Source: a virus. From it: a stretch of DNA of 64,000 bases. The position numbers and the translations under genes are program-made. The first letter of the stretch is position 1; each line of letters opens with the position of its first letter. The stretch is from positions 1 to 64,000 of the IMG/VR virus record IMGVR_UViG_3300009506_000012; one strand, 5' to 3'. The notes under the pieces are model-generated. The model did no database searches. It saw nothing but the letters and a program-made list of their open reading frames with translations, and was not told the origin of the DNA. Shown here piece by piece: positions 12,056 to 61,123 of the stretch.

Positions 12056-12260
12056 TTTGTTTTTCTGGAAACATCAATTCGTTAATAGACAGATCGAATT
12101 GTTCTTCAAACCAATGCCAAATGGTTTCCCTGTGAGTTCCTACTGGAAAATGTAAGAATTCTTCTTCAATCTGTTCATCAGTATCAATGGGAATATCACC
12201 TAATTTTTCCCAAAGAATAGTTGCTGTTTTTCTTGTGAATTTCACAAAACTAAACGGCAT
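12048..12260 (-). CDS. Small conserved phage protein of unknown function
   Basis: 70 residues, acidic. GDIPIDTDEQIEEEFLHFPV then GTHRETIWHWFEEQFDLSIN resembles a small hypothetical protein often seen in phages and plasmids; no function is known to me. Overlaps both neighbours by 8-11 nt. Confidence 0.7.
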   Translation of the reverse strand: MPFSFVKFTRKTATILWEKLGDIPIDTDEQIEEEFLHFPVGTHRETIWHWFEEQFDLSINELMFPEKQNE

Positions 12261-12675: not shown

Positions 12676-13446
12676 TTAGTAAATTTCCTTATCAATATCG
12701 ATTACCTGAGTAGTAAAGCCAGCTTTCTTCATCGCATCCAGTACCTTTTCAAGTTCATCTGATACCTTTTTGTCTTTGGTCATTGTACCCATGAAACCTT
12801 TCAGTGGCAGCCACATGAATGCCCCAAAATCGAATTTGGGTTCTTTGTCCAGAACTGGTTCACAAGTGTATGAGAATGATGGGCGTATTCGTCCATATCC
12901 AGATTCTGAATTTACACATTCACTGATAGGAATTTCACTCCACCACATCGCAGAACAGGTATCTCGAAAACCCTCATCAAATGGCTTTGGATGTTTGCTC
13001 ACTGGACGAAGGCACTTACGATGGTTATGATTTACCTGCCCCAGAACAAGACCAATATCCTGCAAAGCGCCAGCATCCGTACACAGATAGTGACGTGATA
13101 CTCCTGGAGTCAGTTTATCAATTGGGGTATTGGTTGGCCACCGGCGTGAAATCCCGAACCGCTTGGCTTCTTCAAAGAAATCAGTTTTATACGGATAGTG
13201 CTTACGACCAATGATATCGAACACATCATAAATAGGCCGGCCATCCGGATCCGTCATGTGCTTGCCCTCTGACATCCTGGGAACAATATTCATTCCTTGT
13301 GATGACAAATGGAATGCACTCTTATCAATTGTCCAGACCGGACAAATTACAAATTGCTCAATTGGGATTCCATCTCTGGAAACTCCCCATTCAATATACA
13401 TGGCATCATAAGCCATGGATCCGCAACCTCTACCGGTTGTTTTCAT
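12676..13446 (-). CDS. Hypothetical protein
   Basis: 256 residues, unrecognised. Rich in Trp, Tyr, Cys and Pro with mixed alpha/beta character and a short helical C-terminus (SDELEKVLDAMKKAGF). ATG at 13446 overlaps the previous stop as ATGA; an internal ATG (MAYDAM) is a less likely start. Confidence 0.7.
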   Translation of the reverse strand: MKTTGRGCGSMAYDAMYIEWGVSRDGIPIEQFVICPVWTIDKSAFHLSSQGMNIVPRMSEGKHMTDPDGRPIYDVFDIIGRKHYPYKTDFFEEAKRFGISRRWPTNTPIDKLTPGVSRHYLCTDAGALQDIGLVLGQVNHNHRKCLRPVSKHPKPFDEGFRDTCSAMWWSEIPISECVNSESGYGRIRPSFSYTCEPVLDKEPKFDFGAFMWLPLKGFMGTMTKDKKVSDELEKVLDAMKKAGFTTQVIDIDKEIY

Positions 13447-13772
13447 GAATTTTCAAGCACCCATTCAATCATTTTCTGAACCCATTTGTCAAAAACACTG
13501 TTGAATTTCACCAGGTTGGCGATTGGGGTTGCTTCAGAATTGGCTTTTGTGCGCAGTTCAGGCATCCAAGGCACACGAATAACATCATCGTGATCTAATA
13601 ACCAATAACGGCAATAAGCAACCTGCTGTTTCCAGTTGACTGCCATCACAAAACCAGGTTGCAATCCATTCGGATATTTCCAGTTTTTAGGCTTTCTGTA
13701 ATTCAGTTCTGCCAAATGATCAGGAATATAAACAATCTGATCACCACGTTCAAGCGTTTGAATTTCATCCAT
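13443..13772 (-). CDS. Hypothetical protein
   Basis: 109 residues from ATG at 13772, which overlaps the upstream stop by 8 nt and has AAGGA 10-11 nt upstream; a TTG at 13790 is rejected. LERGDQIVYIPDH suggests a small beta barrel at the N-terminus. Unknown function. Confidence 0.65.
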   Translation of the reverse strand: MDEIQTLERGDQIVYIPDHLAELNYRKPKNWKYPNGLQPGFVMAVNWKQQVAYCRYWLLDHDDVIRVPWMPELRTKANSEATPIANLVKFNSVFDKWVQKMIEWVLENS

Positions 13773-14127
13773 TGTAATAGAGTCCTTCAATCAGTTCAGG
13801 AGGAATGTAGCTCTTTGCAGTTTCAGAATACAACTTATCCCCAAATTGCGATATGGCTTCAATGGCCAAGGAAATCGGCATATTCAACGGGACAAGTCCC
13901 CAATACGCTGAATAGTCATCTCCGTATCCAATTGACAAAATCACAATCTGATAAAAGGCTTTTTCACTGGGATTTTCAGTTATGATTCTTTTGGTATTGT
14001 CATACCAGCCTGAAACATCCCGGAAAACCTTCATCTGTTGATCGATGCGGGGTGTAAATTCTTTGCAGTATACAATTAGCTTGGTTCCCGGAGGGGGAAC
14101 GCGAATAACATTGTTGTCACTTGTCAC
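13765..14127 (-). CDS. Hypothetical protein, GTG start
   Basis: 120 residues. The GTG at 14127 follows AAAAGGA at 7 nt. First gene after the promoter at 14168-14196, with the palindrome at 14143-14158 between promoter and ribosome site. Mixed alpha/beta, no recognised motif. Confidence 0.65.
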   Translation of the reverse strand: MTSDNNVIRVPPPGTKLIVYCKEFTPRIDQQMKVFRDVSGWYDNTKRIITENPSEKAFYQIVILSIGYGDDYSAYWGLVPLNMPISLAIEAISQFGDKLYSETAKSYIPPELIEGLYYNG

Positions 14128-16919: not shown

Positions 16920-17795
16920 TTATCCACGATATGGACCATTCCAGCTTTCAAAGAATTCCGGATTGACCCAAATTTCAGTTGGCGAAGTATCACCCATCCG
17001 CCAGGACGTGACCAGGATTTGACCTTTGTTATTGGTGATATCATCCCATTTCTTGATTTCTTCAACAATACGCCGGCCAAGGAACACACGATAGTCACAG
17101 TGTAGAATTCCACAACGCAGATCAGGCTGATAATCGTAACCAGTCTTGAATTTTGTATCGACTTGTGCTGAAGCTGTTTCTTTCAGCCCAAAGATATAAC
17201 GACTGCGCAATTTAGGATCTGACAGTGTTTGATAAGCGTCATTGATTTGTTTGAAACGTTCTTCGGCATTGGGCTCTTTGCAAACGTCCGGATGCCACTG
17301 TCTTGCCATTCTTCGGAAACCTTTACGGATTTCGTCATCAGTTGCGGTTTTAGAAACACCCAGCAACCCGAATAATGTTTGCGTAGACGGATCCCCGGTT
17401 CTCTTTACAGTAGACCCAGAGAAAAAGGCTTGCAATACATCCTCATGAATCAGGATATCCCAGGCACTCGTTACATAATCCATACCAAACGAATGCCAAT
17501 CGTTCTTCTCCTTTGATGTGCCCAGATACTTGACCTTGATTGTACCGGTTTGCAGTTTTGGTTTTGACTTGATAACCGGGATTATTGGCGTTTCGTCATA
17601 ATGTTTTTTGATTAGCTTGGCCAACAAATCAGCATGTTTTGGATGTATAAGCCAATGTGGTTTATCCCAAGCACGATCGCTGCTCGGAATTTTCCATTTC
17701 AGATCATCCAGAAAGTCATGGTCGTAACGTGTCAGGCAAGCAAGCGCACCATCTTTGTCAGTTACAACACATGGTCCATCATAATATTTTCCCAT
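16920..17795 (-). CDS. J-domain (DnaJ-like) co-chaperone
   Basis: 291 residues. A classic J domain at about 138-202: LFGLLGVSKTATDDEIRKGF, then RRMARQWHPD with HPD at 168-170, then INDAYQTLSDPKLRSRYI. The 137-residue N-terminal and 90-residue C-terminal parts are not like DnaJ or CbpA (no Gly/Phe or zinc region). J domains activate host DnaK, so the protein probably directs host Hsp70 to a phage substrate. Starts after AGCAGG; a strong palindrome lies upstream. Confidence 0.88.
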   Translation of the reverse strand: MGKYYDGPCVVTDKDGALACLTRYDHDFLDDLKWKIPSSDRAWDKPHWLIHPKHADLLAKLIKKHYDETPIIPVIKSKPKLQTGTIKVKYLGTSKEKNDWHSFGMDYVTSAWDILIHEDVLQAFFSGSTVKRTGDPSTQTLFGLLGVSKTATDDEIRKGFRRMARQWHPDVCKEPNAEERFKQINDAYQTLSDPKLRSRYIFGLKETASAQVDTKFKTGYDYQPDLRCGILHCDYRVFLGRRIVEEIKKWDDITNNKGQILVTSWRMGDTSPTEIWVNPEFFESWNGPYRG

Positions 17796-34870: not shown

Positions 34871-36256
34871 ATGGCAGACCCCATCACTGATTATTATGCA
34901 GACAATCCGGTTGAGGTACTGGATAAGAACCAACGTACCTGGTACGACCCCGATGTGCTGCTACTGTTCAAAAATAGGTCACTCTTTACCAATGTTGTGA
35001 CCTATGCGCGAAATCTCGGTGACGTTCGCGCTACAAGCATGGTGGTAACCCAGATCCTGGAACCACATGCCAATTACAACGCCCTCGCAACCCGGCAGCT
35101 GTGGCTCCCGGCGATGCACATTGACTCTCGTTCTATCGAGATCACCTTCAGTCACCACGGTGGCAAGGTGGCCATGCACGATTATGATGAGCTGGTGACT
35201 TACTGGCAGACCAATGGAAACCCAGGCCTGCGCGTCATCCTCAATCGTGTCCTCGGTCAGAACATTGTTGATGTCCATGACTTCCTGGCCCGTAACGCTT
35301 TGCTGTACGGCGCTTTGGCACAAACCGGTTATGTGTATTACGCCGGTTCTGCAACCAACTTTTCCGATCTTGTCTCAACCGATTCGATGACCCCTGATAT
35401 CTGTATGGAAATCCAGCTGGGTATGAAGTACCGTGAAGTCGCCGGCGCTCTCAATCCGGATGGCTCTCCCGGCGCTGTGGTGTGCTACACCACGCCTGGT
35501 GTGATTTATGAATTCCAACAGGATCCAGACTGGGTTGAGGTTGCAAAATATGCGGATCCGGCTCGCTTGTTCCGCTATGAGGTTGGCACCTACAAGAATG
35601 TGCGTTTTGTTGAAAATACGCGCCTGACCCTGTTCAACTGCGGCACGATTGAATTCCAGGCCGCAATCAGCGCGGCTGCACATGCCGGTGATGGTGCGCC
35701 CAATCCTTCTACGACCAAGGTCGATGGTACCTATATGGTCGGTCAGACTACAGCTGGAATCGTGAACTACATTCAGCTTGATACGCCCATCACTGGAACG
35801 ATCGCTGATAACCTGGCTGTCAATGACATTCTGACCATTCACACCTCTCGTACCAGCACTTTCAACGTAACCAATGGCGTGAACCCATTCGATGGCACCC
35901 TGCACAATCGCCGTCTGGTCGAGATTGATGAGGCCAATGGCCGGCTTATCTTCGATAAGCCGATCATGATGGACTTCGCAACTGACCTGGGTGGTGGCGT
36001 TTATGGATACGTGACCAAAGGCTTCCATATCCACTCGAGCATCTTCATTGGTGCCCCGCAGGGTATTGTCGCTGGCCTGGCCGCGCCTATCCGTCTGCAC
36101 ACCCCGCCCCCCATCGATGACCTGGAAGCGATTTATCGTTTCTCATGGAATGATCGTATGGGCTATCAACCATATGCCCCAGAGGTGTATGAGGTTGTGT
36201 TTAGCGCTGGTTCTGTCCGGTTCAAGGGCAAGATGGGCGCTGCTGCTGGATCCTAA
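34871..36256 (+). CDS. Major capsid protein, N4-gp56-like HK97 fold
   Basis: 461 residues. SRSIEITFSHHGGKVAMHDY and VLGQNIVDVHDFLARNALLY match the N-arm and spine-helix region, and WVEVAKYADPARLFRYEVGT with YKNVRFVENT matches the N4-gp56-type capsid signature (P-domain to A-domain). Residues about 273-365 look like an extra beta-rich insertion (VNYIQLDTPITGTIADNLAV), probably on the capsid surface. GGAG precedes the ATG. Base composition is richer in G+C than neighbours, usual for a highly expressed gene. Confidence 0.9.
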   Translation: MADPITDYYADNPVEVLDKNQRTWYDPDVLLLFKNRSLFTNVVTYARNLGDVRATSMVVTQILEPHANYNALATRQLWLPAMHIDSRSIEITFSHHGGKVAMHDYDELVTYWQTNGNPGLRVILNRVLGQNIVDVHDFLARNALLYGALAQTGYVYYAGSATNFSDLVSTDSMTPDICMEIQLGMKYREVAGALNPDGSPGAVVCYTTPGVIYEFQQDPDWVEVAKYADPARLFRYEVGTYKNVRFVENTRLTLFNCGTIEFQAAISAAAHAGDGAPNPSTTKVDGTYMVGQTTAGIVNYIQLDTPITGTIADNLAVNDILTIHTSRTSTFNVTNGVNPFDGTLHNRRLVEIDEANGRLIFDKPIMMDFATDLGGGVYGYVTKGFHIHSSIFIGAPQGIVAGLAAPIRLHTPPPIDDLEAIYRFSWNDRMGYQPYAPEVYEVVFSAGSVRFKGKMGAAAGS

Positions 36257-37473: not shown

Positions 37474-38556
37474 ATGGCTACAACTGCTCAGGCCGGGATT
37501 TTTGGATGGGGTCCTCAAAGCGCCATGGAATCTGCCGCAACGCAGTATTGGCGTCACAAGGCCACAAATATCGATCTCGGTATCTTAGACGATATCAGGG
37601 TCGGACCGCTTGAAATTGGTTCCGGCCCATTTCCCACGTTCCCGTACAAGGCCGGTTATGTGATCGGCGGGGGCGTGGATATGCAGCCTCGTCTGGAGGA
37701 TTCTCTAGGCTGGCTGTTGTACGCGCATCTGGGTTCTCACAGTGTCGGTGCGGCTGTTGATGGGGTTTATCCTCACACGTTCGTGCCTGATACTGACCCG
37801 TCATTCGTGCGCTGGCTGTCTTTGCGCAAGTACATTCCTCAGAAGGAATCAGACCCGGCTACTGACCTCGGTGAACTTTATACCGACTGCAAACCAGTCA
37901 ACCTTGGCCTGACCCTGCCTAACGATATGCCCATTACGGCACGTTGGGACTTCATGGGACGTTCCTTCACCCTGGTTGACGACATCACGCCGTGGACCTG
38001 GGAAAATGCCGCGTATGAGGACTGGCAGTCCATTCCGGTAGGTTGTGAAACCGGTGGCGACATCCAGTTTACCGGTGGCGATCTATCCGGGCTGTCCGTT
38101 CCTGTGGTACGTGCGCAGGTTGCTTTCGGCAATCAGAACCTGGATATCCGTCAAGAAAAGGTGTATGGCTCACCTGAACTAGAGGACATCACCATCATTC
38201 AGCGTCAGTTGACCTTCGATGTAACGATCAAGTGGAATGATCCCTCGATCTATCGAAATATTCTGACCCTGCTTTCCAACGGTACTAGCTGGTCATCCCG
38301 TCCTTTGACTGGTTCACTGGATATCAAGACCGTAGGTACTGCATTAGCCGGTTCGTCCACTACACAGAAATTCGAGCTTGATATTACTGCCGATGAAGTC
38401 ATGTGGCAGATGAACGGCCCAATCACGATGGCCGCTGGTCAGGCAATCATGATGCGGTTCACTGGAACTGCATTGGAGCCTTCCAGTGGTGACTATGCAA
38501 CATTCACGTTGTATAATGAGGTGGCTGATTACGCTTGGCCTTCTGCGGGCTCTTAG
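37474..38556 (+). CDS. Major tail (tube) protein
   Basis: 360 residues, beta-rich, Gly/Thr/Asp-rich: GYVIGGGVDMQPRLEDSLGW, RRL-free beta sandwich segments, and LSGLSVPVVRAQVAFGNQNL typical of tail tube proteins with a second (Ig-like) half. Preceded by AAGGAG. The 84 nt after it hold a CCTGGG...CCCAGG hairpin (about 38580-38608) and no gene. Confidence 0.85.
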   Translation: MATTAQAGIFGWGPQSAMESAATQYWRHKATNIDLGILDDIRVGPLEIGSGPFPTFPYKAGYVIGGGVDMQPRLEDSLGWLLYAHLGSHSVGAAVDGVYPHTFVPDTDPSFVRWLSLRKYIPQKESDPATDLGELYTDCKPVNLGLTLPNDMPITARWDFMGRSFTLVDDITPWTWENAAYEDWQSIPVGCETGGDIQFTGGDLSGLSVPVVRAQVAFGNQNLDIRQEKVYGSPELEDITIIQRQLTFDVTIKWNDPSIYRNILTLLSNGTSWSSRPLTGSLDIKTVGTALAGSSTTQKFELDITADEVMWQMNGPITMAAGQAIMMRFTGTALEPSSGDYATFTLYNEVADYAWPSAGS

Positions 38557-38640
38557 GCGCATGATCCTCCTTCTGTTGGCCTGGGTGGGTTCCACGACCT
38601 GCCCAGGTCGACCACATCACACAAACAGGAATACAACAAT

Positions 38641-39336
38641 ATGACAACTAAATTCGCAATCATCGCAGGCCCCAGAACCGGAAGCAGTACGATCCAAGTC
38701 TTTCTTGAAGATCTGGGGGTTTTTGTTTATAGAGAACCATTTAGACCCGAGAAAAATATACATCCATATCCGGATACTCTCAATGAGATTTATTTCAAAA
38801 AGAACGCAGTTGGATTGAAGCATGTTTACACTCATGTCAACATTGAGGAAAATATCCGAATGGTTGAATGGCTTTATCAGAGAGGCATTACTACTGTTCT
38901 TCTGACGCGCAGGAATAAATTTCACCAGGCGGTCAGTCTTTTGATTGCCAAAAAACTGAATATCTGGGCAGTCAAACCTGATGTCATGGCGGCGCTTGAA
39001 TACAGGAATGTTGAAAGTTTTGAAATCTCGATCAGCGAGATTGAAAAGTTTATTGAATATGCTGAAACGATTGAAAGCGCTATTATGGGTATCCATATTC
39101 CCGACTATCAGATTTTTCAGACATTGTATTATGAAGCCTATTTCAATCAGGACTCTGCCAGGGCATTGACCAATGCAAGTCAGCTTGTTCGGGCGCTGGG
39201 TATCACAGCACCGGATTACATCGCTCCAATGATCCAACAGCATTTTGCGCCAGGAAGAAAACAGAACACCGAAGCTATCTATAGATTGATTTCTAATCGT
39301 GCTGAAATTGAAGAACATTTCGGAGCAAAATTATGA
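38641..39336 (+). CDS. Stf0-like sulfotransferase
   Basis: 231 residues. IIAGPRTGSSTIQVFLEDLG (7-26) is the PAPS 5'-phosphosulfate loop and LLTRRNKFHQAVSLLIA (88-104) the 3'-phosphate site with R90/R91 and S99. LHV- and PFRP-type segments are as in bacterial glycolipid sulfotransferases. Transfers sulfate from PAPS to a hydroxyl, normally on a sugar. First of five genes of carbohydrate chemistry between tail tube and tail chaperone genes. Bases here look A+T-richer than the flanking structural genes, consistent with acquisition. Confidence 0.82.
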   Translation: MTTKFAIIAGPRTGSSTIQVFLEDLGVFVYREPFRPEKNIHPYPDTLNEIYFKKNAVGLKHVYTHVNIEENIRMVEWLYQRGITTVLLTRRNKFHQAVSLLIAKKLNIWAVKPDVMAALEYRNVESFEISISEIEKFIEYAETIESAIMGIHIPDYQIFQTLYYEAYFNQDSARALTNASQLVRALGITAPDYIAPMIQQHFAPGRKQNTEAIYRLISNRAEIEEHFGAKL

Positions 39337-39899
39337 CAGACAAGGTTATTGTCGATCTTGGAGGAGAGGGGCATTACCAAAATGGCACCGTAACGGTCAA
39401 CATCAATCCCGAATCAGGTAGCGACATCATATGTGATATCACGGCGCGTGGCCAGGAGCTGCACAGATACTTTCCTTATGGGAGTGTGGACATGTTTACC
39501 TGTATCCATACTCTTGAACATCTTGACCCGGCTGATGTTCCTGAAAGTCTGCTTTACTGGAAATCCATTCTGAAAGATGGAGGCCGGTTATTGGTTATCG
39601 TTCCGGACCTGAAGCAGTTATGGCAGGATGTAATGAATGAAATTGTTTCCGAAGATGTTGCAATCGCAATCACATTTCGTAATAATTTCAATGGAAAATT
39701 TGAATACTGGGACACCCATAAATGGGGCTGGACACGTAAAACTTTGCGCCGGGATATGGCATCCTGTGGTTTCAAAGTCATTGATCCTGAACGACCATTT
39801 TCGAAAGATTACATCTTCGATGATTACAGCTTTAGCTACACCGGTGATGTGCATCATTATGTTATTCCAAATTTGCGAGTGATGGGGTTGAACAAATGA
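39333..39899 (+). CDS. SAM-dependent methyltransferase (Methyltransf_11-like)
   Basis: 188 residues. KVIVDLGGEGHYQNGTVTVN is a modified motif I in which a nucleotide-binding strand leads to VNINPE; CIHTLEHLDPADV and LKDGGRLLVIVPDLK are motifs II-III of the family acting on small molecules and sugars in polysaccharide clusters. Starts in an ATGA overlap with the sulfotransferase gene. Confidence 0.82.
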   Translation: MTDKVIVDLGGEGHYQNGTVTVNINPESGSDIICDITARGQELHRYFPYGSVDMFTCIHTLEHLDPADVPESLLYWKSILKDGGRLLVIVPDLKQLWQDVMNEIVSEDVAIAITFRNNFNGKFEYWDTHKWGWTRKTLRRDMASCGFKVIDPERPFSKDYIFDDYSFSYTGDVHHYVIPNLRVMGLNK

Positions 39900-40663
39900 A
39901 TGAATATCTTGAGAAGTTTCACCTGCAATATTTTCTGGAACACAAAAGAGAGAATCGCTATTGGTGGTTTTTGAGGAATCAGTTTATGCCACCTGTGTAT
40001 ACTACCTTGGATGAACCTGAATTCTTATTGCTGATGGAGTGGTTTCGAGAAACAGACAAGAGAGGTGTTGCCGGGGAATGTTCTGTGCCTCTCATCTCTG
40101 CTTTGCTTGGATTTATCGCCGGGTCCGGGATAGATGCAGTTGTACAGCTGGGTCATGCTTACGGATATTCCAGTCTGCTTATGGGCTGGATGCTTCGCAG
40201 AATGGGGAAAAAACATGCACTATTTTCAATCGATATCAATCCGGATGCAACTGCTTTTGCCCAACACTATATTGACAAGGCTGACCTCAATGAAGTTGTT
40301 GCGCTCCGTGTTGGCAATAGTGCTGACCCAAAGATGGTAGATCGTGCCAGGCAGTATTTTGGAAAAGAACCACAAATGATCTTCATTGACAGCAGTCATC
40401 AATACAAACATACACTGAATGAATTACGGCTTTATTACAATGCGCTTCCCAAGAATGGGATTATCTTTCTGCATGATATCTCTCGTTTTGCAACCAGGTT
40501 TGATAAAACAGGAAAGGGGGGAGTCATGAAGGCGGTCTGCGAGTTTGTTGAAACCAATCTTACTGAATCCGGTCTGTTCAATCGGCATATCGAAGGTAGC
40601 GACAGGGACGCGCCTTTGATTTTGTTGGATGGGTGTGGTCTGGGAGTGATACAGAAGTTATGA
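39896..40663 (+). CDS. SAM-dependent methyltransferase (Methyltransf_24-like)
   Basis: 255 residues. VVQLGHAYGYSSLLMGWML (motif I in the V-x-L-G-x-x-x-G-x-S form), ALFSIDINPDA, then MIFIDSSHQYKHTLNELRLY and GIIFLHDIS, the pattern of class I O-methyltransferases with a D-S-H-Y site. Such enzymes methylate sugar hydroxyls in surface glycans. ATGA overlaps join it to both neighbours. Confidence 0.85.
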   Translation: MNEYLEKFHLQYFLEHKRENRYWWFLRNQFMPPVYTTLDEPEFLLLMEWFRETDKRGVAGECSVPLISALLGFIAGSGIDAVVQLGHAYGYSSLLMGWMLRRMGKKHALFSIDINPDATAFAQHYIDKADLNEVVALRVGNSADPKMVDRARQYFGKEPQMIFIDSSHQYKHTLNELRLYYNALPKNGIIFLHDISRFATRFDKTGKGGVMKAVCEFVETNLTESGLFNRHIEGSDRDAPLILLDGCGLGVIQKL

Positions 40664-42813
40664 ACAGTTTCGATTGTTTTGATACTCTGATTGGTCGAAC
40701 TTGCGTTGATCCTGTCAATATTTTCGAAATGGTTGGAAACGAGATTAGGGATCCGGATTTTGTCAAAAAACGGATTGCCGCAGAAAGATTCTTTCAGCGC
40801 AAAAAGGCTCCTTATACACTTGATACTATTTATAAACAGCTTGGCCAACCAGAGCTGGCTGAAATTGAATTCGGCTTCGAGCTTAAGAGTACATTCAAAA
40901 TAAAACGCTATGCAAAAATGCTTCGGGAAGATGACATTATTATTAGTGACATGTACCTGACTGAAGATCAGGTACGCTTACTTCTCGAGAAAGCCGGCAT
41001 TCATTTCGGCGGGAAGATATTTGTTAGCAATTATGGAAAGTTTTCTGGAAACATTTGGAGAACGGTCAAAGAGCAGAGTCACAAGATCGAATTTCACCAT
41101 GGGGATAATTCTTTCACAGACTTTGAAAGTCCAAGAAAACACGGTATTCGTGCAATCAGGGTCACTGACACAAAACTGAACAAGATCGAAAAGCTGTATG
41201 CCGATACGCTTCCGGAACTGGGTGCCTGGGTGCGCAACAATCGGCTTCGGTATATCGTGGACGAGCGCAAAGAATTCTTGACGTTTATGCAAAATCAGTA
41301 CAACATGCCGCTGTTGTGGAGTATCTGTCAGGAACTTGATCACTATCACAATGTGTATGATTTATTATTTATGTCCAGAGATACCCAGCTTCTGCACCGC
41401 ATGTACACGACCCTGGTTCCGGACGCGAGAGCTGAATATATCTATATCAGCCGAGATACTTTGCGAGGTGACAGTCAGTCTTATTTCGAATATTTGAATT
41501 CGAAGTTAACAAACAGATCTATACTGGTTGACATGGCATCCTCTTGTGGATCTTTGAAAGAATCTCTACCTCATCTTCAGGTAAAAGAGCCCAATGTGTT
41601 TACAGCTGTTTTTTTACCTGTGCCGTTCAAGGTCGATCTTGGCCCAATCCATTGTTTTGCGATGACAACCAATACCCAGATACAAATCAACAATACCTAT
41701 TTGGAGATGTTGAATTATGCAGACCATCTTCATGTGGCTGATGTTGTTGACGGAAAACCTGTATTCGATCTTCCTGGTGAATATGACATGGAAAAGGTCA
41801 AAGCTTACCATCGTGCTTTCAACCTGATGCTTGAAAATATTCCCAACCGTATAGTTGATGCAAAACCAGTATTCTTCCATGCACTAGCTGAAATCCAGAA
41901 GAACAAAGACAGAATCGGCAAAGAGTTTCCGAATCATGTTCCTATCGAAATCAAGCATAAAAAAACCATAAAGCAGGAACGCGCCAAAGACAATGTGATT
42001 GTGATCGGAGCTATCGCTAATTATTCCTGGACAAACATAGAACCATGGTGGAAATCTTTGAAGGCAACCGGTTTCGATGGGGATATACATATGCTGTGCT
42101 ACAACATTGGAGGCCAGTCAATTCGGTACATGGAACGTAGAGGCATTCAAACACATGTCAGAAAGTTGACCGGGAAACAGATTGTGATTGATCGCTTTCG
42201 TGACCTGGCTACGCTTCTGGATGATATCGATCCGGATACCTGGATTGTTTTTCCGGATGTTGGGGATATCGTATTTCAGTACAACCCGAGACACTACCTC
42301 GAATCTGTATCAAAAGATATTGTGGTGACGCATGAAGGTGTTCTTTTCAGCGGAAACAAGTGGATGCTGAATAACCTCTATGAGAGCTTTCCAAAATACG
42401 CTGAAGGTCTGAAGGATAAGTTCTTCTTCAATGCTGGCTCCATAGCTGCTAAAGCTGGAATACTTTCGCAAATGTCAGAACACATCTACAAACTATGCTT
42501 GGAAAATCAGAACGCCACCAGTCACGACCAGACCGCCATGAACATCCTGCTTCACAATAACCCTGTTTATCGAAAGAAAACATTATTTTTGAGTCCCAAT
42601 GATCCATGGTGTTTTTGCGGAGCTTCAAGTATATTTGCACGACCCGAAGATGCCAAGAATTATTTGAGCGATCCGGTTACAGTTCAGAACGGAATTTGCT
42701 ATTCGCGCCCTAATGTAAAGACCTGCATGTTTCATCACTACACACGAAACAAAAATATTGCCAGGCAGGTGATAACCCAGGTCAATCGCAGATTTGTAAA
42801 TTCAAGACGGTAA
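40660..42813 (+). CDS. HAD hydrolase-glycosyltransferase fusion
   Basis: 717 residues from ATG at 40660 (ATGA overlap). N-terminal HAD domain of the polysaccharide-cluster type (COG5610-like): SFDCFDTLIGR (nucleophile D5), DDIIISDMYLTEDQVRLLLE, then a second region with DLLFMSRDTQLLHRMYTTLV and YIYISRDT. From about 448 a glycosyltransferase-like domain begins (VIVIGAIANYSWTNIEPWWK) with WIVFPDVGDIVFQ (DxxD at about 528-531) and SHDQTAMNILLH near 625. Predicted to work on a nucleotide- or phosphate-linked sugar. Confidence 0.78.
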   Translation: MNSFDCFDTLIGRTCVDPVNIFEMVGNEIRDPDFVKKRIAAERFFQRKKAPYTLDTIYKQLGQPELAEIEFGFELKSTFKIKRYAKMLREDDIIISDMYLTEDQVRLLLEKAGIHFGGKIFVSNYGKFSGNIWRTVKEQSHKIEFHHGDNSFTDFESPRKHGIRAIRVTDTKLNKIEKLYADTLPELGAWVRNNRLRYIVDERKEFLTFMQNQYNMPLLWSICQELDHYHNVYDLLFMSRDTQLLHRMYTTLVPDARAEYIYISRDTLRGDSQSYFEYLNSKLTNRSILVDMASSCGSLKESLPHLQVKEPNVFTAVFLPVPFKVDLGPIHCFAMTTNTQIQINNTYLEMLNYADHLHVADVVDGKPVFDLPGEYDMEKVKAYHRAFNLMLENIPNRIVDAKPVFFHALAEIQKNKDRIGKEFPNHVPIEIKHKKTIKQERAKDNVIVIGAIANYSWTNIEPWWKSLKATGFDGDIHMLCYNIGGQSIRYMERRGIQTHVRKLTGKQIVIDRFRDLATLLDDIDPDTWIVFPDVGDIVFQYNPRHYLESVSKDIVVTHEGVLFSGNKWMLNNLYESFPKYAEGLKDKFFFNAGSIAAKAGILSQMSEHIYKLCLENQNATSHDQTAMNILLHNNPVYRKKTLFLSPNDPWCFCGASSIFARPEDAKNYLSDPVTVQNGICYSRPNVKTCMFHHYTRNKNIARQVITQVNRRFVNSRR

Positions 42814-42814
42814 T

Positions 42815-42831
42815 GCTCCACATTGTGGAGC
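42815..42831. repeat. Dispersed palindrome, copy 6 (GCTCCAC-ATT-GTGGAGC)
   Basis: Same 17-bp sequence as copy 4, but in the rightward late region, directly upstream of the start at 42840; its right arm supplies the GGAG ribosome site. Confidence 0.85.
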
Positions 42832-42839
42832 TGATTAGC

Positions 42840-43907
42840 ATGAGCGCCTACAATCCTCCAAGACTTGTTTCCAAAGCATACGATAGACCTGTTGACATAC
42901 TGGCTACCAGGCCGCATTTTGTTGACCATATCGCTCCTGTATGGAGGCACCTAGAAAATCGAGGTGGCTTTTATGTTCCTGAAGTATTGTTAGATTATGC
43001 TAAAACCAAAGTACCTGAAGCCGTAGGGGTAAAGCCAGTTGGCAGAAGCGATAAGCTGAATATCAGGCCTCCCGAAAAAAATGTGTACTTTACCTGCGCT
43101 TATGGGGATTTAGAGAAAGGCATGATTACTGACCTGAAACGGGTTTTTATCTTTATGGAACACGGAGTCGGGTTAGTGTTTCCGGGAAATCCTCACTATG
43201 CCGGGAGTGTTGGCCTTCGAAGGCGTGTTCATTTCTTTCTTGCGCCAAATCAGAATATTCATGATAAGACCTGGACCACTTTTCCAGAAGCACCGCAAGC
43301 TATTGTTGGCACCCCAAAGATGGATAATGTTCCAACAGATATGCCGATCAACCGGGATGACCCGTTGATTATTATCTCATTTCACTGGGATGGAAGGAAG
43401 GTGGCCAGGGAAGCGGCGAACGCATATCCACATTTCAGAGAGATTCTTCCGGAAATTGCAAAACGATATCACTTGGCCGGCCATGCTCATCCACGTATCG
43501 CAAACTACTTCGAAAGAGTGTATAATGAATTAGGCATTGAGTTCATTCGTGATTTTGATGAAGTCATGCGCAGAGGGGACCTTTATCTAAATGATGCCAG
43601 TTCAACAGCATATGAATTCGGCGTCACTGGGAAACCAGTCATCTTACTTAACTCGCCCGGTTACCGGCGTAACATAAATTTTGGAATCCGATTTTGGCAA
43701 TACACAGATTGGGCTATTCAGGTTGATGAACCTGGCCAGCTCATTTCTGCTATAGAACAAACACTACATAAACCCTCACATGAACAGAAACAGAAACAGA
43801 TGGTAGCAGACCTCTACCCGTACCATGGGCAGAGTGCAAAGCGTGCTGCTGATCAAATAAACAGATTTCTGAACATGCGAGGAACCAATGCCATACAAGA
43901 TACCTGA
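42840..43907 (+). CDS. CDP-glycerol glycerophosphotransferase-like glycosyltransferase
   Basis: 355 residues from ATG at 42840, with GGAG of the palindrome 9 nt upstream; ATG at 42813 (TAATG overlap) is an alternative. GT-B layout of TagB/TagF-type enzymes: FIFMEHGVG, an ISFHWDGRK linker, GHAHPRI, and near residue 248 YLNDASSTAYEFGVTGKPVI, the nucleotide-binding DxSS-E-KP motif. Expected to move a polyol-phosphate or sugar onto an acceptor. It ends the cassette and overlaps the tail chaperone gene by 20 nt, so it is in the late message. Confidence 0.78.
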   Translation: MSAYNPPRLVSKAYDRPVDILATRPHFVDHIAPVWRHLENRGGFYVPEVLLDYAKTKVPEAVGVKPVGRSDKLNIRPPEKNVYFTCAYGDLEKGMITDLKRVFIFMEHGVGLVFPGNPHYAGSVGLRRRVHFFLAPNQNIHDKTWTTFPEAPQAIVGTPKMDNVPTDMPINRDDPLIIISFHWDGRKVAREAANAYPHFREILPEIAKRYHLAGHAHPRIANYFERVYNELGIEFIRDFDEVMRRGDLYLNDASSTAYEFGVTGKPVILLNSPGYRRNINFGIRFWQYTDWAIQVDEPGQLISAIEQTLHKPSHEQKQKQMVADLYPYHGQSAKRAADQINRFLNMRGTNAIQDT

Positions 43908-44388
43908 TGTTGTTGAAACCGAATTCAGACTCGAGGAATTAGATTCCAGAGAGAATATTCCTGATGAAGAAGCCACAATGATTATGGTCAAGACTGCTTC
44001 AGTGGCTGAAAATTCAAAACGATCCCAACTGTTTTCAAAATACGTGCAGGAAATTCCAAAAGATGATGCAGAACCAGAACGCATTATTTATAACTTCCCA
44101 CTGTATACGCTTATGCAGAAGGAAACCTTTCTGACCCTGGTAGGGTGCAATATCCAATTCCCAACTGGAAAGAGTGATAATGAAGGTAATCCGGAGCTGA
44201 AGCCTTTGTTTAGATTCCGTAAGACTCCCCGTGGAAACGAACTGAATATGAGTGAATTGGAATTCAATAAAGCCTGGGGGATGCTTGACGATGATGTTGC
44301 CGCCGAGATCCATTCCAAAGTTTTAGAAGTCAATCCACACTGGATATTCCAGAATGTCGGAGGTAACACGGACCTGGGGGAAGGCTAG
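43888..44388 (+). CDS. Tail assembly chaperone (gpG-like)
   Basis: 166 residues, acidic, just before the tape measure gene as in lambda-type phages. CGAGGAACCA precedes the ATG. Ends ...TDLGEG then TAG, with a G-rich slip site at 44376-44382. The tail-assembly role is from position and layout, not from similarity. Confidence 0.8.
   Translation: MPYKIPDVVETEFRLEELDSRENIPDEEATMIMVKTASVAENSKRSQLFSKYVQEIPKDDAEPERIIYNFPLYTLMQKETFLTLVGCNIQFPTGKSDNEGNPELKPLFRFRKTPRGNELNMSELEFNKAWGMLDDDVAAEIHSKVLEVNPHWIFQNVGGNTDLGEG
44376..44382 (+). other. -1 ribosomal frameshift site GGGGGAA
   Basis: Zero frame reads CTG GGG GAA GGC TAG. Slipping one base back on G-GGG-GAA places ribosomes in the frame open to 44672. 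The P-site tRNA can re-pair perfectly. The site is one codon before the stop, as in the conserved G/G-T arrangement of long-tailed phages. Confidence 0.7.
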
Positions 44389-44672
44389 TATCCGCAGAGC
44401 TACAAGGTCTAAAGGCTGCTTTGTGGGATTACTTTGGCCAAGCAAATGAACGAGCAGAAGGTATAAAGGTAACAGAAGAAGAACGTGTAGACAAACCAAA
44501 AGCACTGACCAGATACGAACAAATACAAGAACTGCACATTCCATATGTTGATGGTGGCCTTATGGATCAACCTTACTTATGGATGCAGCAGCATGGCGTC
44601 ATCAAAAGTTTCCTCGTTGAATGGAACGCCACGCAAAAAGCATTAGCACAACTTTCAGCGCAAGGACAGTGA
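44379..44672 (+). CDS. Frameshift extension of tail chaperone (gpGT-like)
   Basis: About 97 codons reached by the -1 shift, beginning GRLVSAELQGLKAALWDYFG and running through QELHIPYVDGGLMDQPYLWM to LSAQGQ. It has no ATG near its start (the first start-like codon is TTG at 44421 without a good ribosome site), which supports expression as a fusion. The T domain in this family contacts the tape measure. Confidence 0.75.
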   Translation, partial: GRLVSAELQGLKAALWDYFGQANERAEGIKVTEEERVDKPKALTRYEQIQELHIPYVDGGLMDQPYLWMQQHGVIKSFLVEWNATQKALAQLSAQGQ

Positions 44673-53600: not shown

Positions 53601-53709
53601 AGATTCAAAACCCTCTTTCAAAGAAACCAAAGAGCAGACCATTGTTGTGCAGATTGGCAACGAGGAAATCAAGCGCTTTGTTGTCAGAACAGTAGAGGAT
53701 GACTTGTAA
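44674..53709 (+). CDS. Tape measure protein
   Basis: 3011 residues, the longest gene, after the chaperone pair. It has extended helical and Gln-rich sequence, a Pro/Gln/Thr linker at about 1659-1735, Gly/Ala hydrophobic segments at 2030-2180, an Arg/Gln/Glu coiled coil at about 2700-2870 (ERQMERENITYGREGEQIDR), and a C-terminal GGDFWVGENGPELL, a motif common at tape-measure ends. It sets tail length and is injected or extruded at infection. At about 0.15 nm per residue the tail would be up to roughly 450 nm. Palindrome copy 7 lies inside it. Confidence 0.92.
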   Translation: MPYTVPNPTTDQFRTYLENLLKTFDKTYQVQYVPPQKDAGNSDIEGTDFFNITKKSSNNAGVLKTNLKINLGHESRFRTTYGGQTPQQFERAPEILTGSGQSAYTVGGSWASVATVVDQPGGKSDIDIRHDLRSPIESLATLISTGFSDVEKENRFNPGAVTGDVTSKIMNLLSTGSSEHSDFAVPAGALMTTTGIDVDAVRRKAAQAIQLVNSYDPTGTAEVGQFAQREAIAKARENMMRLSIPVPGRGGKPIDSFFKEAGYAPDRAQADRLVALSQASRVVRDALGQPTDTEIYLPSPKIAKHMTILSSGRQQASLLGEDYQPIAPKMITGRVPTSGYRMTTADVGGRIPEKSLVLGTMFSPQYPIPGAGMYFPETVDANVKSGGYKATQSFGVTRNVKDLLTDKTQLNLQQQTGNVIPSSLNYDVFSMRTKEMKKSDPDIMLQQRAGTHSFAVGNQQLRIPRYYTAEGIGASYDKQMLRKKQLQEVTPAEIEALSKRLGVNVVPDATIEEVLLEMEGQKLVGGKFAIEGVKSDITPYTGTPTFSAGGKERAISAVTWESKQMLETFTGSLGAISPTAQYGILNEYQKSLTASGDTDMAANVRAVIKQQKALRREDPTARLDLQAAANQIAGTATDAPVHGLSRDIFQRVFLGGSKVQDFAGMNEADLSAFAQSDLNVRNLKKFGMGWVSPEMSNPITTMWDRSQVEALFTGYRQGSNVPEAELRARFGRQYGFDFSNAKGDQIAQTFRPSGFYMPAIAGPSVEFSGGGTLGSEETQILSAIAPGFANRLGANAEGLTRRDPVRWAQRQIAHIAATEMDRGEGKYTKIDNALQIGTEQATKMWADPEFRALLGDEAGDLAGMKRFEEKLKSFFPGSEDLNRRPITFEAAPGRYLPSTRAISALATESSATMRGGIRTGEDVTRSWNMFQSAFSQAVTSQINEDPTGLLEGTQNLTSHFMRQFGLPEGGKRDVIKKMMGSEIGVASGHYAFWNELKQNEVYASKEKYMEAIRKELSAQGLDTPERPLSNQEVEQVYNMIAGLPSEVGTAPNDVRTKGLPGVVARWPIVAGEESMLGMRFVTPEHLQRSGRQAPVEAGMGNLHWRIGVGPSSIMQGDFDLDYMLGLMGLTGTRDESGKLDVSFAAYNRNGRLGKDISALVNRTQQMSYETIQRILYPSKNAQQQFDPIFQAFQDRDKTGTLGPMQQVARNLIGEQFGKSGWQPYGHLLDSVATYGGAKMMMGTSYNFTRALEAAAGVGGWSTEGIMQGRRGRAQIYQPHLDLQTSQAAPMVRMYQSSFLAEGKGGKLGLGFGTDVAGYGLQFMKNAGKIMNLSEDNTSRIITMLAGSAITPTTAGELPSPEMLGYAFSPEEGRVNTAPEDMQTSLDLFTKWKNAERHPENAAEYNKRADYEEAYMRTTGLADVLQAPYNMEGTTDERATAMQHTLSQWMKYNYYGTKEGRETALQGNFITAMFSKSYAKKQEKEPGWTPPLDFRTSKLGSRMMGKANIQAPLFNMMKGGLSSGRTLRRLLNSIGQTSGLTSWATGNLQALGFGTDETIFPQSQVSASGNVRSTGPNGEPIIVSPEMERLWAKDWARMKNKGLYEGNFGQYIEERKADLARLNTSFAGKPVDQARVNPETKDIEGGFENIPMVDFDAINNAQPEPEQTQTTTTQPEQTTAKPQQKTPKPQQPSSTQKPQPGGTQPPNKQPPGGGTSTPVSPTTPPSGTPPPRAPQDASQNTKFPGLPANSIPTEQAQEYIGKFREYMPNITQAAGAIQSELGAITGATPGPMGVYEAMAQLPEEQRMEILKKYQEPARQAQELMGLAKKVYPNLEKNVIDPAVLRQFGMSGADLRIMSEDTLLTNNPVGQNLVDLGGLTGVPGFETLKKRGGTTAASGQVSANIAQIHFQELGEITKKLTENFENLSKGQIKHSDALKEETKLLEQREQARQKQALSEKAAPLVEQGLLEPEITATKRGKPQISYKRTDKPIPQEMYKASQAYDEQLLKTEGLGGTEGQDRLIGGVRPSFMRRVLGGFGLMYMRSLGNIITGGLGYGQQERTNMEQVFGASAGGMAGIGYTPQNQAQVLQNRMALGGQAYNPMLGLQMARAQSPLLQDISAAGGAGLGTYALLQQAALWGGEGSIFQQIANGGLSAFGGRLNIGAGTVVGGAVGASLLAQGYAKSQDTEGLAYRWGTGNAFSKITGLTDTLGRIGAGQAFTGDIYQRGATYRMLQENLQRPEGMTTQGVMDWVTEQGLGGQKYVDAGTPEGQAWYGQATQKLLLDQNPEFAPETIAATYQFMQRNQMNLKDFGTIASQFQTGYTEESVSSMLKGFGMSMGQQLSQTENWAGGNAPTNLGVAYMQTLGMINQNNAPQFQAGLEYMGQLGFAPQIMQQQQGLSNQEMVNQVLQWGGQGAMQGGLYAQRAQAYQQGAFMGWNVQAPEAPPENLTPEQFGQGMYESQKQSQKMMQIEQIANQFSSNFGWSGEQRQGFLGDMESFYKSGRFNAYYADVLGGASQMNPYAMTQLYTQQQPGGALAGIGPQIQPWQVTKDIWGPGAGELAGKAVNLPAFTVSGGTHPQFQALSEMLGPDFMQQLLGTDAGNAFVNGYQMEGTNMPAVAGLMGYQMQQADKQWDLRQAQMGISDRGNQLQMEYLPKIWNIQDQMRDLGYRHQMFQFGQQEKQIAMQAGQFYENIGLSEYQSQLQRGWTQQDWAFNSETRAMQHGWRVEDFEEQRRFMTGRQRRLAERQMERENITYGREGEQIDRQQERQKELWALEDERFQMQKDHYEEQRQMQEESLKENKKYYEQNFELQKKLTDLQRELTMKQLELQKESLELQKQIAEEQHKMQQVQQAIQLLMLQNQTKLEDSQQIFGGISEEMRTLFEDWADVIGNGGSGSGGYTNYTVYGSGGASGTINSGVRPEGSSGGMQMAEGGDFWVGENGPELLSVGMDGPTTRMRGRIQPTKYDPWGSTAIDSKPSFKETKEQTIVVQIGNEEIKRFVVRTVEDDL
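50551..50566. repeat. Dispersed palindrome, copy 7, inside tape measure gene
   Basis: GCTCCACTAGTGGAGC in frame at codon 1960, encoding APLVEQ. Identical to copies 2 and 3, but within coding sequence. Confidence 0.85.
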
Positions 53710-54140
53710 TGGCTACTAATCGATATATCACTTTACAAGACAGTGAACTATCCGTGGTGAAACGCTTCAAATCCATAGGGCTTCGAACTCCATGGCAACG
53801 CACCGACAATTTCAGAGTCACGCTTGGTGGTGATATTGATAAGGTTGCTGGAACTATCTTGTATGCTTATCAATATGTCTTGCGTGTTCCTGCTGAAGTT
53901 GATGATCTGAACTACGGAACGCTTGACGATCTAAAGTCCTTGTTTGTTTTGAACAATCCGAATGGTACTCCGAACGATATCATTACACTGATTGATCACT
54001 ATGGAGATTCCCACACGGTCCTTTTCAACGAGGATGTTACCCCGGAGCCTTTGACAACTATGCTTGAAGGCTACAATGCCTGGTTTATTGTGCCAATTTC
54101 TTTCGTTGAAATATTTTTAGCCGGAGGAAGCGGTTCATGA
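53709..54140 (+). CDS. Small distal tail protein
   Basis: 143 residues, beta-rich, ending FVEIFLAGGSGS. Position right after the tape measure and before the large hub suggests a distal tail component. TAATG overlap with the tape measure. Its Gly-Ser tail is encoded by GGAGG, the ribosome site of the next gene. Confidence 0.7.
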   Translation: MATNRYITLQDSELSVVKRFKSIGLRTPWQRTDNFRVTLGGDIDKVAGTILYAYQYVLRVPAEVDDLNYGTLDDLKSLFVLNNPNGTPNDIITLIDHYGDSHTVLFNEDVTPEPLTTMLEGYNAWFIVPISFVEIFLAGGSGS

Positions 54141-58255: not shown

Positions 58256-60554
58256 AAAGAATACATCGCTAAGTCGTAAGATCAATGACAGCATCAAGCA
58301 AGGAAAGCTCATGCCAGCCGTGGTCGTGGACGTATTCAATAAACGTGCGACTATTCAGCTTTCAGGAAATGGCGCACTACTTCATAACCTGCGTGTGATT
58401 GGCGGGCCAGTAGATAAACTGCAAAAAGTAGATGTAGACTTCACGACCCCGGAACCGACTGTGGTGGCGATCAGCAAAGAATGGGTGACTAGCGATGAAC
58501 TCGAGAAAGCACTGAAGGCGCTTACCGCAGACAGTATCGAGCAGAAGTTGCGCTTCGATATTGTTCTTTTTTCCGGAGGTGGCGCACAGGACCAATACCC
58601 CCCAACCGCCGAAGGCCTCTCGAGCGCAGTTGATGCTGCCGGCAACGGGGATGTCATTTTTCTTCCGGATGTTGATATTGAGATCGACCTGACAATTCCT
58701 GAATATGTGACCTTGCGAGGAGTGAGCAAGCGGCAATCTATTATTCGTGGAAGCATCACCTTCAGCTCCGGGGTATCTTTTGAAAACCTGTGTTTGCTTC
58801 AGGGAAGGTTCACCAGTGAAGAAGTCGTAGGAATTACAGTCCCGGCTGTCACAAGTAAAACCTTCATCCGTCATTGTGAGATACATGGCTATAACTGCTC
58901 AGATGGGAACGCGGTAGCGGTTGACCTGGCGGCTGGTGCCAAGTTAGAGATCGAGCATTCCGTAGTGATCGGTGACGCGGCCAATGCAAGCGCCTGGGCT
59001 GTTCGCGGTGTAGCTGGAAGCACGTGCAGAATCAGTAATGGACAGGTGTTTGGAAAAACTGATGTGTATACCGGTACAGGGATTTATGAATATTCAAACC
59101 TTGAATTTGAAAGCGAGATTGCAAGAGGTTGTATTGTTAGTGGGGAATTAAGGAACGGGGCCTCTGTCTCTAATTCGGTATACAACACTCTGGTTCCTGC
59201 GGGTGCTATTCTGGATCCAAGTGGTATTGTGACAGAACCTTATTTCAAGGAAATTTACGATAGTGTTCTCAATCTGTATGTTGGAGGCACACCTGTTCTT
59301 CGCGTGGGAGACTACATTTATTTCATCGATATGGATGGGTTTGCAGGTTCAAACGGGCAAGTCATAGTTACTGAATATGATATCGTCAATGATACTTCTA
59401 AGAGTCTCAACGCAGGGACTTACTATACTCTTACGGGCAGGGATATAATCTGTGCTGGGGACAACAGGAAAATCTATGCCGCTTTCAGATCTACCTTCAG
59501 CACAGTCGAAATTGATGTGATCGAGTGTGATTTTGAAAATGATACAGTTACCAATATAAAAACATGGGAAGATGGAGATGAACCAGGGTTCTACGACAAC
59601 CCACGGGGCATCTACTGCCTTCAAGATACTTCGGGCAATTTGCATCTTGTCCTGTTTGGACAGTGGGAAAACACAAACAACACAAATGTGAACACGATAA
59701 CCTGCTCCGGTGTTTACATCCGTCATTATGATTTTGCGGCTGATGCCTGGGTGACTAAAACACTTGAATACAATTCTAACTATTATGGGATAAGTGCAAA
59801 CTGGTATTTTCCTCCTGGCATGTGGGAAGATAAATTCCTTCTTTTTCCAACCCCGTCAACATTCGTTGCTGAGGATGCCGCTGGCAACGATCTGAATAAC
59901 AATTACGATATACCTCCTGATGGACTATACGTGATGAGTGTTCCCATCTATGACATCAAAAACAAAACATTCACACAACTCTATAGAGAGGTCACAGGCA
60001 CTGATGACTGGACAGGCCAACCAAGTCTTGATATCGCAGCTGTCAGTCCTGCCACGGGTGAAGTCATCATAGGCTGGCAAAATGGCGATGGAAGCAACAC
60101 CTATGATTCAGTCCATATATACAGGTGGGATATTGATACCGGCAACATCACTCACATTCATGAGACTGCTGATACTGGTACCCTAAGTTTCATGAACTCT
60201 GACACCGAACTCTATATTTTTGAATACACCAGCTACAGTCCTTATGTCGGTATTCTTAGAAAAGCCTCTGACTGGTCAATTCTCAGCTCTAATTTTTCGG
60301 TATCTCCTTTTGGGGTACGTATTGTGGATGATCAGGACCGGTTCTGGAGATATGATGAGACTACTGAAAAGGTATTTGGCACCAAGGTCACAGATGATAG
60401 CGATCAAATATCTTTTGATGCACCTAAAAGTTTATTGTCTGACGGACAGGCTCAAGATTATTTCTTTATTCTTCTCATGGGTGACTGTATTGCAATCTGG
60501 ATAAAAGAAGGCATATCTACTACTAATAGAGTACATATCTGGTTGGTGAAATGA
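58248..60554 (+). CDS. Tail fibre/spike with beta-helix and propeller
   Basis: 768 residues. N-terminal small barrel (MPAVVVDVFNKRATIQLSGN, about 22-75). Residues 130-310 have short strands with GVSFENLCLL and FIRHCEIHGYN, typical of a right-handed parallel beta-helix, as in pectate-lyase-like spikes. The rest has repeated SGNLHLVLFG/ DTELYIFEY strands like a beta-propeller. Likely host-binding or polysaccharide-acting. Overlaps the hub gene by 8 nt. Confidence 0.7.
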   Translation: MPKKNTSLSRKINDSIKQGKLMPAVVVDVFNKRATIQLSGNGALLHNLRVIGGPVDKLQKVDVDFTTPEPTVVAISKEWVTSDELEKALKALTADSIEQKLRFDIVLFSGGGAQDQYPPTAEGLSSAVDAAGNGDVIFLPDVDIEIDLTIPEYVTLRGVSKRQSIIRGSITFSSGVSFENLCLLQGRFTSEEVVGITVPAVTSKTFIRHCEIHGYNCSDGNAVAVDLAAGAKLEIEHSVVIGDAANASAWAVRGVAGSTCRISNGQVFGKTDVYTGTGIYEYSNLEFESEIARGCIVSGELRNGASVSNSVYNTLVPAGAILDPSGIVTEPYFKEIYDSVLNLYVGGTPVLRVGDYIYFIDMDGFAGSNGQVIVTEYDIVNDTSKSLNAGTYYTLTGRDIICAGDNRKIYAAFRSTFSTVEIDVIECDFENDTVTNIKTWEDGDEPGFYDNPRGIYCLQDTSGNLHLVLFGQWENTNNTNVNTITCSGVYIRHYDFAADAWVTKTLEYNSNYYGISANWYFPPGMWEDKFLLFPTPSTFVAEDAAGNDLNNNYDIPPDGLYVMSVPIYDIKNKTFTQLYREVTGTDDWTGQPSLDIAAVSPATGEVIIGWQNGDGSNTYDSVHIYRWDIDTGNITHIHETADTGTLSFMNSDTELYIFEYTSYSPYVGILRKASDWSILSSNFSVSPFGVRIVDDQDRFWRYDETTEKVFGTKVTDDSDQISFDAPKSLLSDGQAQDYFFILLMGDCIAIWIKEGISTTNRVHIWLVK

Positions 60555-61123
60555 TGGCCGCAATTCCGCTGAAAGGTGATCGGTCTGCTAGAGATGATGT
60601 CAACTATCCCTCTCTGCATTCCAAAGGAATAGAGGATGGAAATCAAACTATCCATCTTCCTCCTGGGACAAGTGTAGGTGACATAGCTTATTGGGATGGA
60701 ACCAAATGGACAACTCAACCTCTGACAGGCAGTCAAGGAGTCGTCCCACCTATCATGACCCTTGGCACCTATGAAGGATCCATACAGGTTGCTACCTCAC
60801 CACTTGGAATTTACAACCGCTATGGGGAAAGCCGTGAGATCATAGAAGTCTTTTTATCCGTGTCTGCCGCTCCGGTCGGAGCAGATATTCTTGTTGATAT
60901 TCTTGTCGGAGGTGCTTCTATCTTTGGAGCAACCAAAGCCACTCTTGCAGCTGGTCAAACTACTGGTGTGATTACATCTTTCCTGGATCCTGTTTGGTTA
61001 GCCAACAGTAAGTTGGTTTGGGACATTACTCAAGTTGGTTCAAGCACACCTGGTTCCGACCTGGTTGTTCATATTCTGCATGAGAAATATTCAGTGCCTG
61101 GCTCTGGAGGCTCGGGTTCATGA
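60551..61123 (+). CDS. Small tail fibre-associated protein
   Basis: 190 residues: a disordered first third (LKGDRSARDDVNYPSLHSKG), then VGDIAYWDGTKWTTQPL, the pattern by which fibres carry short trimer-forming segments, then a beta sandwich and a Gly-Ser tail. Overlaps both neighbours by 4 nt. Confidence 0.65.
   Translation: MMAAIPLKGDRSARDDVNYPSLHSKGIEDGNQTIHLPPGTSVGDIAYWDGTKWTTQPLTGSQGVVPPIMTLGTYEGSIQVATSPLGIYNRYGESREIIEVFLSVSAAPVGADILVDILVGGASIFGATKATLAAGQTTGVITSFLDPVWLANSKLVWDITQVGSSTPGSDLVVHILHEKYSVPGSGGSGS

Follow-up and report, generated by a model that had tools for sequence, protein, structure and literature searches.

To our knowledge, glycosylation of virions has been documented mainly in mycobacteriophages. 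According to PMC12619734 and PMC12363180, which refer to Freeman et al. (2023), mycobacteriophages carry glycans at the C-termini of capsid and tail tube, and Che8, Corndog and Myrna are named as glycosylated; Che8 is also named for C-terminal glycosylation in PMC12363180. The window analysed here comprises bases 1–64000 of an 82,163-base viral record from IMG/VR. An initial annotation had described five genes for glycan chemistry between its tail-tube and tail-chaperone genes and had suggested that they decorate the capsid or tail tube.

Layout and enzymes of the cassette

The glycan-chemistry cassette was confirmed at its place and on its strand: five plus-strand ORFs occupy 38641–43907, with the tail-tube gene on one side and the tail-chaperone gene on the other. 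The genes are joined by ATGA or short overlaps at every junction, as had been claimed, and the last of them shares 20 bases with the chaperone gene. Matches in Pfam and PHROGs support a portal, a major head protein, a tail tube and an SU10-type adaptor in the flanks. The major capsid protein (34871–36256, plus strand) matched PHROG 1357 (major head protein, E = 3.4e-15) and fell just under the cut-off for Phage_capsid_3; the tail tube protein (37474–38556, plus strand) matched Phage_tube_2 with 24.5 bits and PHROG 290 (tail) with E = 1e-12. The tail assembly chaperone was identified solely from its position before the tape measure gene and its reading frame; its first frame (43888–44388, plus strand) is conserved in the nine kin loci that span the region, and for the second frame (44421–44672, plus strand) the −1 frame is open from 44367, ahead of the first-frame stop.

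A strong GC-rich hairpin with no U-tract (38576–38613, plus strand) follows the tube gene, and such a hairpin was found at this place in the window and in all kin that were folded (eight loci, seven sequences, L014 and L015 being the same). The cassettes lie downstream of the hairpin and may therefore be transcribed less than the tube gene, which qualifies the earlier claim of co-production with virion proteins. No transmembrane-like segment was found by sequence scan in any of the five cassette proteins and the enzymes are of a cytosolic type.

The first gene (38641–39336, plus strand) encodes an Stf0/NodH-like sulfotransferase predicted to carry out PAPS-dependent glycan sulfation. Its product is unlike the Stf0/NodH family in lying under the Pfam cut-off (Stf0, PF09037; 18.1 bits against a gathering score of 22) and like it in a P-loop-like PRTGSST, in the R...S motif region and in a profile match, a two-sequence sulfotransferase profile having matched the solved LPS sulfotransferase NodH (9vki) with E = 6.8e-5. 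The PAPS-binding motifs PRTGSST and RR(N/D)K...S are conserved between this protein and its homologue in phage Rctr41k. Sulfotransfer_3 had no match anywhere in the whole record. Single-sequence scans of viral contigs with the sulfotransferase and the HAD-glycosyltransferase found nothing, and a two-sequence sulfotransferase scan likewise gave no match.

Two SAM methyltransferases follow on the plus strand. MT1 (39333–39899, entered through an ATGA overlap) is of the Methyltransf_11/23 type, with a Methyltransf_11 match barely above the cut-off, and MT2 (39896–40663) is an O-methyltransferase of the Methyltransf_24/CmcI-like type (Methyltransf_24 59 bits; RMNT_CmcI and Methyltransf_3 also above the cut-off). 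The fourth gene (40660–42813, plus strand), for which ATG 40660 is a more probable start than GTG 40633, encodes an HAD-like domain fused to a GT-A-type glycosyltransferase, an arrangement that was compared with COG5610. The C-terminal part matched Nucleotid_trans under the cut-off; the HAD motif I FDCFDT, read from the sequence, and the DxD motif DVGD are conserved with Rctr41k, in which there is a full-length homologue (43.5%). Other HAD relatives (L039–L050) are distant and are without any other cassette gene.

The product of the last gene (42813–43907, plus strand) belongs to a phage-enriched, Glyphos_transf-like family and is the proposed initiating enzyme. It is like the CDP-polyol phosphate transferases TagF/TarL in its GT-B fold, modelled with a pLDDT of 84.8, and in a D-x-S-S-T motif. 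The match of its family to the Pfam family of TagF/TarL (Glyphos_transf, PF04464) ranges from weak to significant: the window protein scored 17.6 bits, under the cut-off, and the homologues L014 and L034 exceeded it with 23.1 and 31.6 bits, respectively. Among the structures matched by the model, UDP-GlcNAc 2-epimerases came first and TagF was at rank 26; the protein glycosyltransferase SdgB was also listed. The protein is thus unlike TagF/TarL in its score below the cut-off, in its nearest structures and in its phage-enriched subfamily. Structure prediction, which had been proposed as a check, returned a GT-B fold with TagF among the matches but with the epimerases nearest, so that the label 'CDP-glycerol-type' is weak and would hold at the superfamily level only. 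Polyol-phosphate chemistry is a weak suggestion, since UDP-sugar enzymes resemble the fold more closely than CDP-glycerol enzymes do. The other labels (sulfotransferase, methyltransferases and HAD-glycosyltransferase) were retained, some on matches below cut-off; homology support for the cassette enzymes lies mostly below curated cut-offs and the specific activities are taken from weak HMM matches.

Cassettes in related and unrelated phages

A related capsid gene was present in ten IMG/VR contigs, and the capsid protein had no confirmed match in 84,980 genomes. Closest to the window are L014/L015 (capsid 76%, tube 71%), in which a cassette made up of a GT-B homologue (50%) together with two methyltransferases occupies exactly the same tube–chaperone junction. 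They are like the window in phage lineage, junction, homologous GT-B transferase and Gly-Ser tails, and unlike it in having neither sulfotransferase nor HAD-glycosyltransferase beside the GT-B gene. The search for the same cassette in relatives, which had been suggested earlier, therefore located a cassette at the junction in L014/L015 but with a different gene set, and none in distant kin.

In those of the more distant, cassette-less kin that span the region, the gap between tube and chaperone genes is 216–390 bp. An Ig-like domain is fused to the tube C-terminus in two of them, L002 (Big_5, E = 2.5e-10) and L005 (SWM_repeat; its tube exceeds the Phage_tube_2 cut-off), and a small ORF lies at the junction in others. 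The premise that gene order is usually fixed here fails for this group because the content of the junction varies, being a tube-fused Ig-like domain in some members, a small ORF in others and a cassette in yet others. Searches of the whole records of the cassette-less kin, most of which are fragments, turned up no GT-B homologue, and Glycos_transf_2 gave weak matches only in the kin contigs, in two records of the Rctr41k lineage. In phage Douge both capsid and tube carry protruding C-terminal Ig-like domains (PMC13033339), from which it follows that the C-termini of these two proteins can project outward.

Among 50,697 GenBank phage records, only that of Rctr41k (KX853513; a phage from a Methylomirabilis enrichment, PMC5099504) had clear homologues for four cassette proteins out of five, namely the sulfotransferase, MT2, the HAD-glycosyltransferase and the GT-B transferase. 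Rctr41k is unlike the window in that these genes lie at two places (MT2, sulfotransferase and HAD-glycosyltransferase adjacent to one another, the GT-B gene in the head operon), MT1 is absent and the HAD and glycosyltransferase parts are annotated as two ORFs. A search of the paper describing it (PMC5099504) gave no mention of virion glycosylation. The GT-B family was found at 25 IMG/VR viral loci in an alignment-based scan, mostly in the Rctr41k lineage; in contigs of that lineage the gene lies between the capsid/protease and SU10-type adaptor genes, often with methyltransferase genes adjoining, and at L035 a GT11/galactosyltransferase/methyltransferase fusion is encoded nearby. The module thus recurs in more than one phage lineage.

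C-terminal serine endings of virion proteins

The capsid protein of the window ends in ...KGKMGAAAGS and the tube in ...YAWPSAGS; in L014/L015 the corresponding endings are ...KGRLGS and ...YVWPSAGS. Cassette-less capsids (seven non-redundant) end in ...VQ, ...NQ or ...TV, and cassette-less tubes end in ...WP(S/T) or run on into an Ig-like domain. Since cassette-less tubes already end in Ser or Thr (WPS, WPT), it is the extra AGS that carries the signal in the tube. In L032 (record G014), a third relative with the transferase, the capsid ends in ...AEIS and the tube in ...WPS. Among the capsids of this lineage, the Ser ending was present in 3/3 transferase-bearing against 0/7 transferase-less members, a comparison of few, related genomes that ignores phylogeny.

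A predicted third acceptor is the small protein whose gene (53709–54140, plus strand; C-terminus ...AGGSGS) immediately follows that of the tape measure. Its ending is GSGS in the window, NEGS in L014 and EPTS in the phage of L032, all transferase-bearing, against EVQ in L003 and LVL in L002, which are cassette-less. Among late genes of the window phage 6/27 were GS-ending, against 0/27 early genes, in a post hoc count on a hand-picked gene list. A late protein with no assigned function (60551–61123, plus strand; C-terminus ...GSGGSGS) is a possible acceptor but a weak one, because the match in L014 runs into a longer ORF without the ending.

In Rctr41k the capsid/protease, tail tube and post-tape-measure proteins are all GS-ending. 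Across its lineage all non-redundant capsid/protease proteins (12/12) and tubes (5/5) have a terminal S, which is found in 6% of the remaining proteins; the capsid comparison covered transferase-bearing members only, and capsid identity was taken from annotation, the capsid/protease model (pLDDT 55) being too poor to confirm the fold. The residues before the terminal S vary in this lineage, and the post-tape-measure protein of four of its phages ends in EGS, AGS, EGS and EGS. In the sequences compared, the Ser ending co-occurs with the GT-B transferase in two unrelated phage lineages.

Comparable endings were found in mycobacteriophages. In Che8 the capsid ends in KTGS and the tube in SDGS. 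Dylan (Corndogvirus), used as a stand-in for Corndog, has VGS and GDS endings on capsid and tube and encodes an O-methyltransferase and three glycosyltransferases in the head operon, between the portal and protease genes. Both proteins end in S in Dylan, MooMoo, prophiGD57-2 and prophiGD91-2, all with annotated glycosyltransferases. None of the seven capsids of AGM1, Dubu, phiSASD1, D6E, P318, Muddy and D29 has a Ser ending; these controls lack a Che8-type glycosyltransferase and may carry other glycosyltransferases.

Interpretation and comparison with known systems

The best explanation, given a probability of roughly 0.74, is that the cassette is a virion-glycosylation island in which the GT-B transferase starts a glycan on a C-terminal serine and the other enzymes extend or tailor it. 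The enzymes would be made late, when the tail chaperone and the tape measure protein are also produced. As the sole enzyme common to all these non-mycobacterial phages, the GT-B transferase (42813–43907) is the best initiating candidate; it would attach a first residue to the serine that ends each of three proteins, namely the major capsid protein, the tail tube protein and the small post-tape-measure protein. The HAD-glycosyltransferase would then lengthen the chain, which both methyltransferases and the Stf0-like sulfotransferase would cap or tailor, so that each particle might bear hundreds of short, outward-pointing glycans, probably methylated and sulfated. We infer the initiating enzyme, the order of the enzymes, the identity of the sugars and Ser as the acceptor from sequence comparison; sulfation of the glycan in the window phage is plausible. 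The earlier interpretation is partly supported overall, its central idea of a decorated capsid or tail tube being well supported by a shared C-terminal (Gly-)Ser that tracks the transferase and matches that of mycobacteriophages reported to be C-terminally glycosylated.

Cell-surface polymers and small molecules are the substrates of sulfotransferases of the NodH type, methyltransferases of the CmcI/rhamnosyl type and TagF-like enzymes, and the cassette enzymes might accordingly remodel a host LPS, teichoic or capsular polymer, blocking superinfection or changing serotype, with the late operon serving for timing only. This is considered unlikely. The cassette has no membrane segment or flippase-like partner, and the GT-B family was not confirmed in any of 84,980 prokaryote genomes by a pattern scan, which argues against a host-surface enzyme; the Ser ending of virion proteins tracks the transferase, and expression would be late, beside virion genes. 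A different reading of the endings themselves is that a terminal Ser protects abundant proteins from proteolysis and is not an acceptor site. It is borne by the most abundant virion proteins and some of these end in AAS, but the homologous abundant proteins of transferase-less phages are without it, and Che8, which has it, is reported to be C-terminally glycosylated; stability is judged a rather poor account.

The variation of the junction among kin and the G+C content of the cassette (41–45%, against 53% for the adjoining capsid and tube genes) would suit a chance gathering of unrelated moron genes with no joint pathway. Such an origin is nevertheless quite improbable, given that the unrelated Rctr41k also combines four of these five genes, that the GT-B and methyltransferase genes recur at two different operon positions and that translational overlaps join the cassette genes. 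Least probable, and by a wide measure doubtful, is hypermodification of the phage DNA with glycosylated bases against restriction: phage glycosyltransferases are able to modify DNA (PMC12619734), but the cassette is part of the virion operon, the large ORFs scanned included no recognisable gene for a base hydroxymethylase or another hypermodification enzyme, and the C-terminal Ser pattern would be left unexplained.

A broader version of the virion-glycosylation reading, in which (Gly-)Ser on capsid, tail tube and post-tape-measure protein is a general, portable acceptor signal served independently by several unrelated enzyme sets in phages whose bacterial hosts differ, and the coat of this phage is sulfated and negatively charged, is tentative. 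The literature search returned no paper in which a phage sulfotransferase is linked to virion glycosylation and no phage precedent for a sulfated, negatively charged virion coat. If the Ser rule is true, glycosylated phages would be recognisable from sequence in any environment by two C-termini and a transferase gene. Because an acceptor residue and a likely initiating enzyme are named, the idea can be tested by a single intact-mass measurement. It also suggests chemically charged virion coats and offers a possible role for phage sulfotransferases, the function of which was called unclear in a study of marine phage (PMC10580990).

Set against glycosylated mycobacteriophages of the Che8/Corndog kind, the window phage is alike in encoding its own sugar-transfer enzymes (the GT-B transferase and the HAD-glycosyltransferase) and in having acceptor-like C-termini on both capsid and tube, its AGS and SAGS endings resembling TGS and DGS in Che8 and VGS and GDS in Dylan. 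The data give no sign that it is an actinobacteriophage, which would set it apart from Che8, Corndog and Myrna, and its enzyme set differs in the presence of a sulfotransferase and in a GT-B transferase of another family. Glycans on virion proteins are reported for mycobacteriophages and predicted for the window phage. No mycobacteriophage homologue was found in GenBank phage records for any of the five cassette proteins; the cassette is therefore not a member of that group by descent, and the analogy is one of function only. What the locus appears to encode is a C-terminal virion glycosylation like that of mycobacteriophages in function, carried out by a different, non-homologous set of enzymes.

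The tail tube gene and its C-terminal end

Directly 3' of the tail tube gene (37474..38556) lies a strong, GC-rich hairpin without a U-tract (38576-38613). A matching hairpin was found at the same place in the kin loci L002, L003, L005, L006, L010 and L011 and in the closest kin L014 and L015, and its sequence differs from lineage to lineage. The post-tube hairpin is possibly an attenuator or an mRNA end that sets the tube level.

Two of the cassette-less kin encode tail tube proteins with a C-terminal Ig-like domain, namely Big_5 in L002 (13657-15042) and SWM_repeat in L005 (4342-5751); these domains occupy the exact position at which the window phage has the C-terminal ending AGS and the glycan cassette. 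L002 also carries an inserted gene of 352 aa (11382-12440) between the capsid and adaptor genes, the product of which has no Pfam match.

Tail chaperone frames

The -1 frame of the second chaperone is open ahead of the stop of the first (44367-44421), an arrangement that points to programmed frameshifting, which is also seen among tail chaperones of other phages. Elsewhere, the early region of the window encodes a DnaJ-domain protein on the minus strand (16920-17795).

Glycan genes in other viruses

Homologues of the last cassette gene, the GT-B gene (42813..43907), occur in further viral loci. In L035 one lies near a gene for another set of glycan functions, a 727-aa protein in which GT11, galactosyltransferase-like and methyltransferase domains are fused (11741-13924). 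In L034 the GT-B and methyltransferase genes are adjoined by a gene whose product is weakly similar to MptE-like (Maf/DUF115-type) proteins (12357-12965). The HAD and glycosyltransferase parts, which form a single 717-aa protein in the window phage (40660..42813), have separate but overlapping ORFs in the annotation of the unrelated phage Rctr41k (KX853513; L012:11504-13673), either a real split or a sequencing error.
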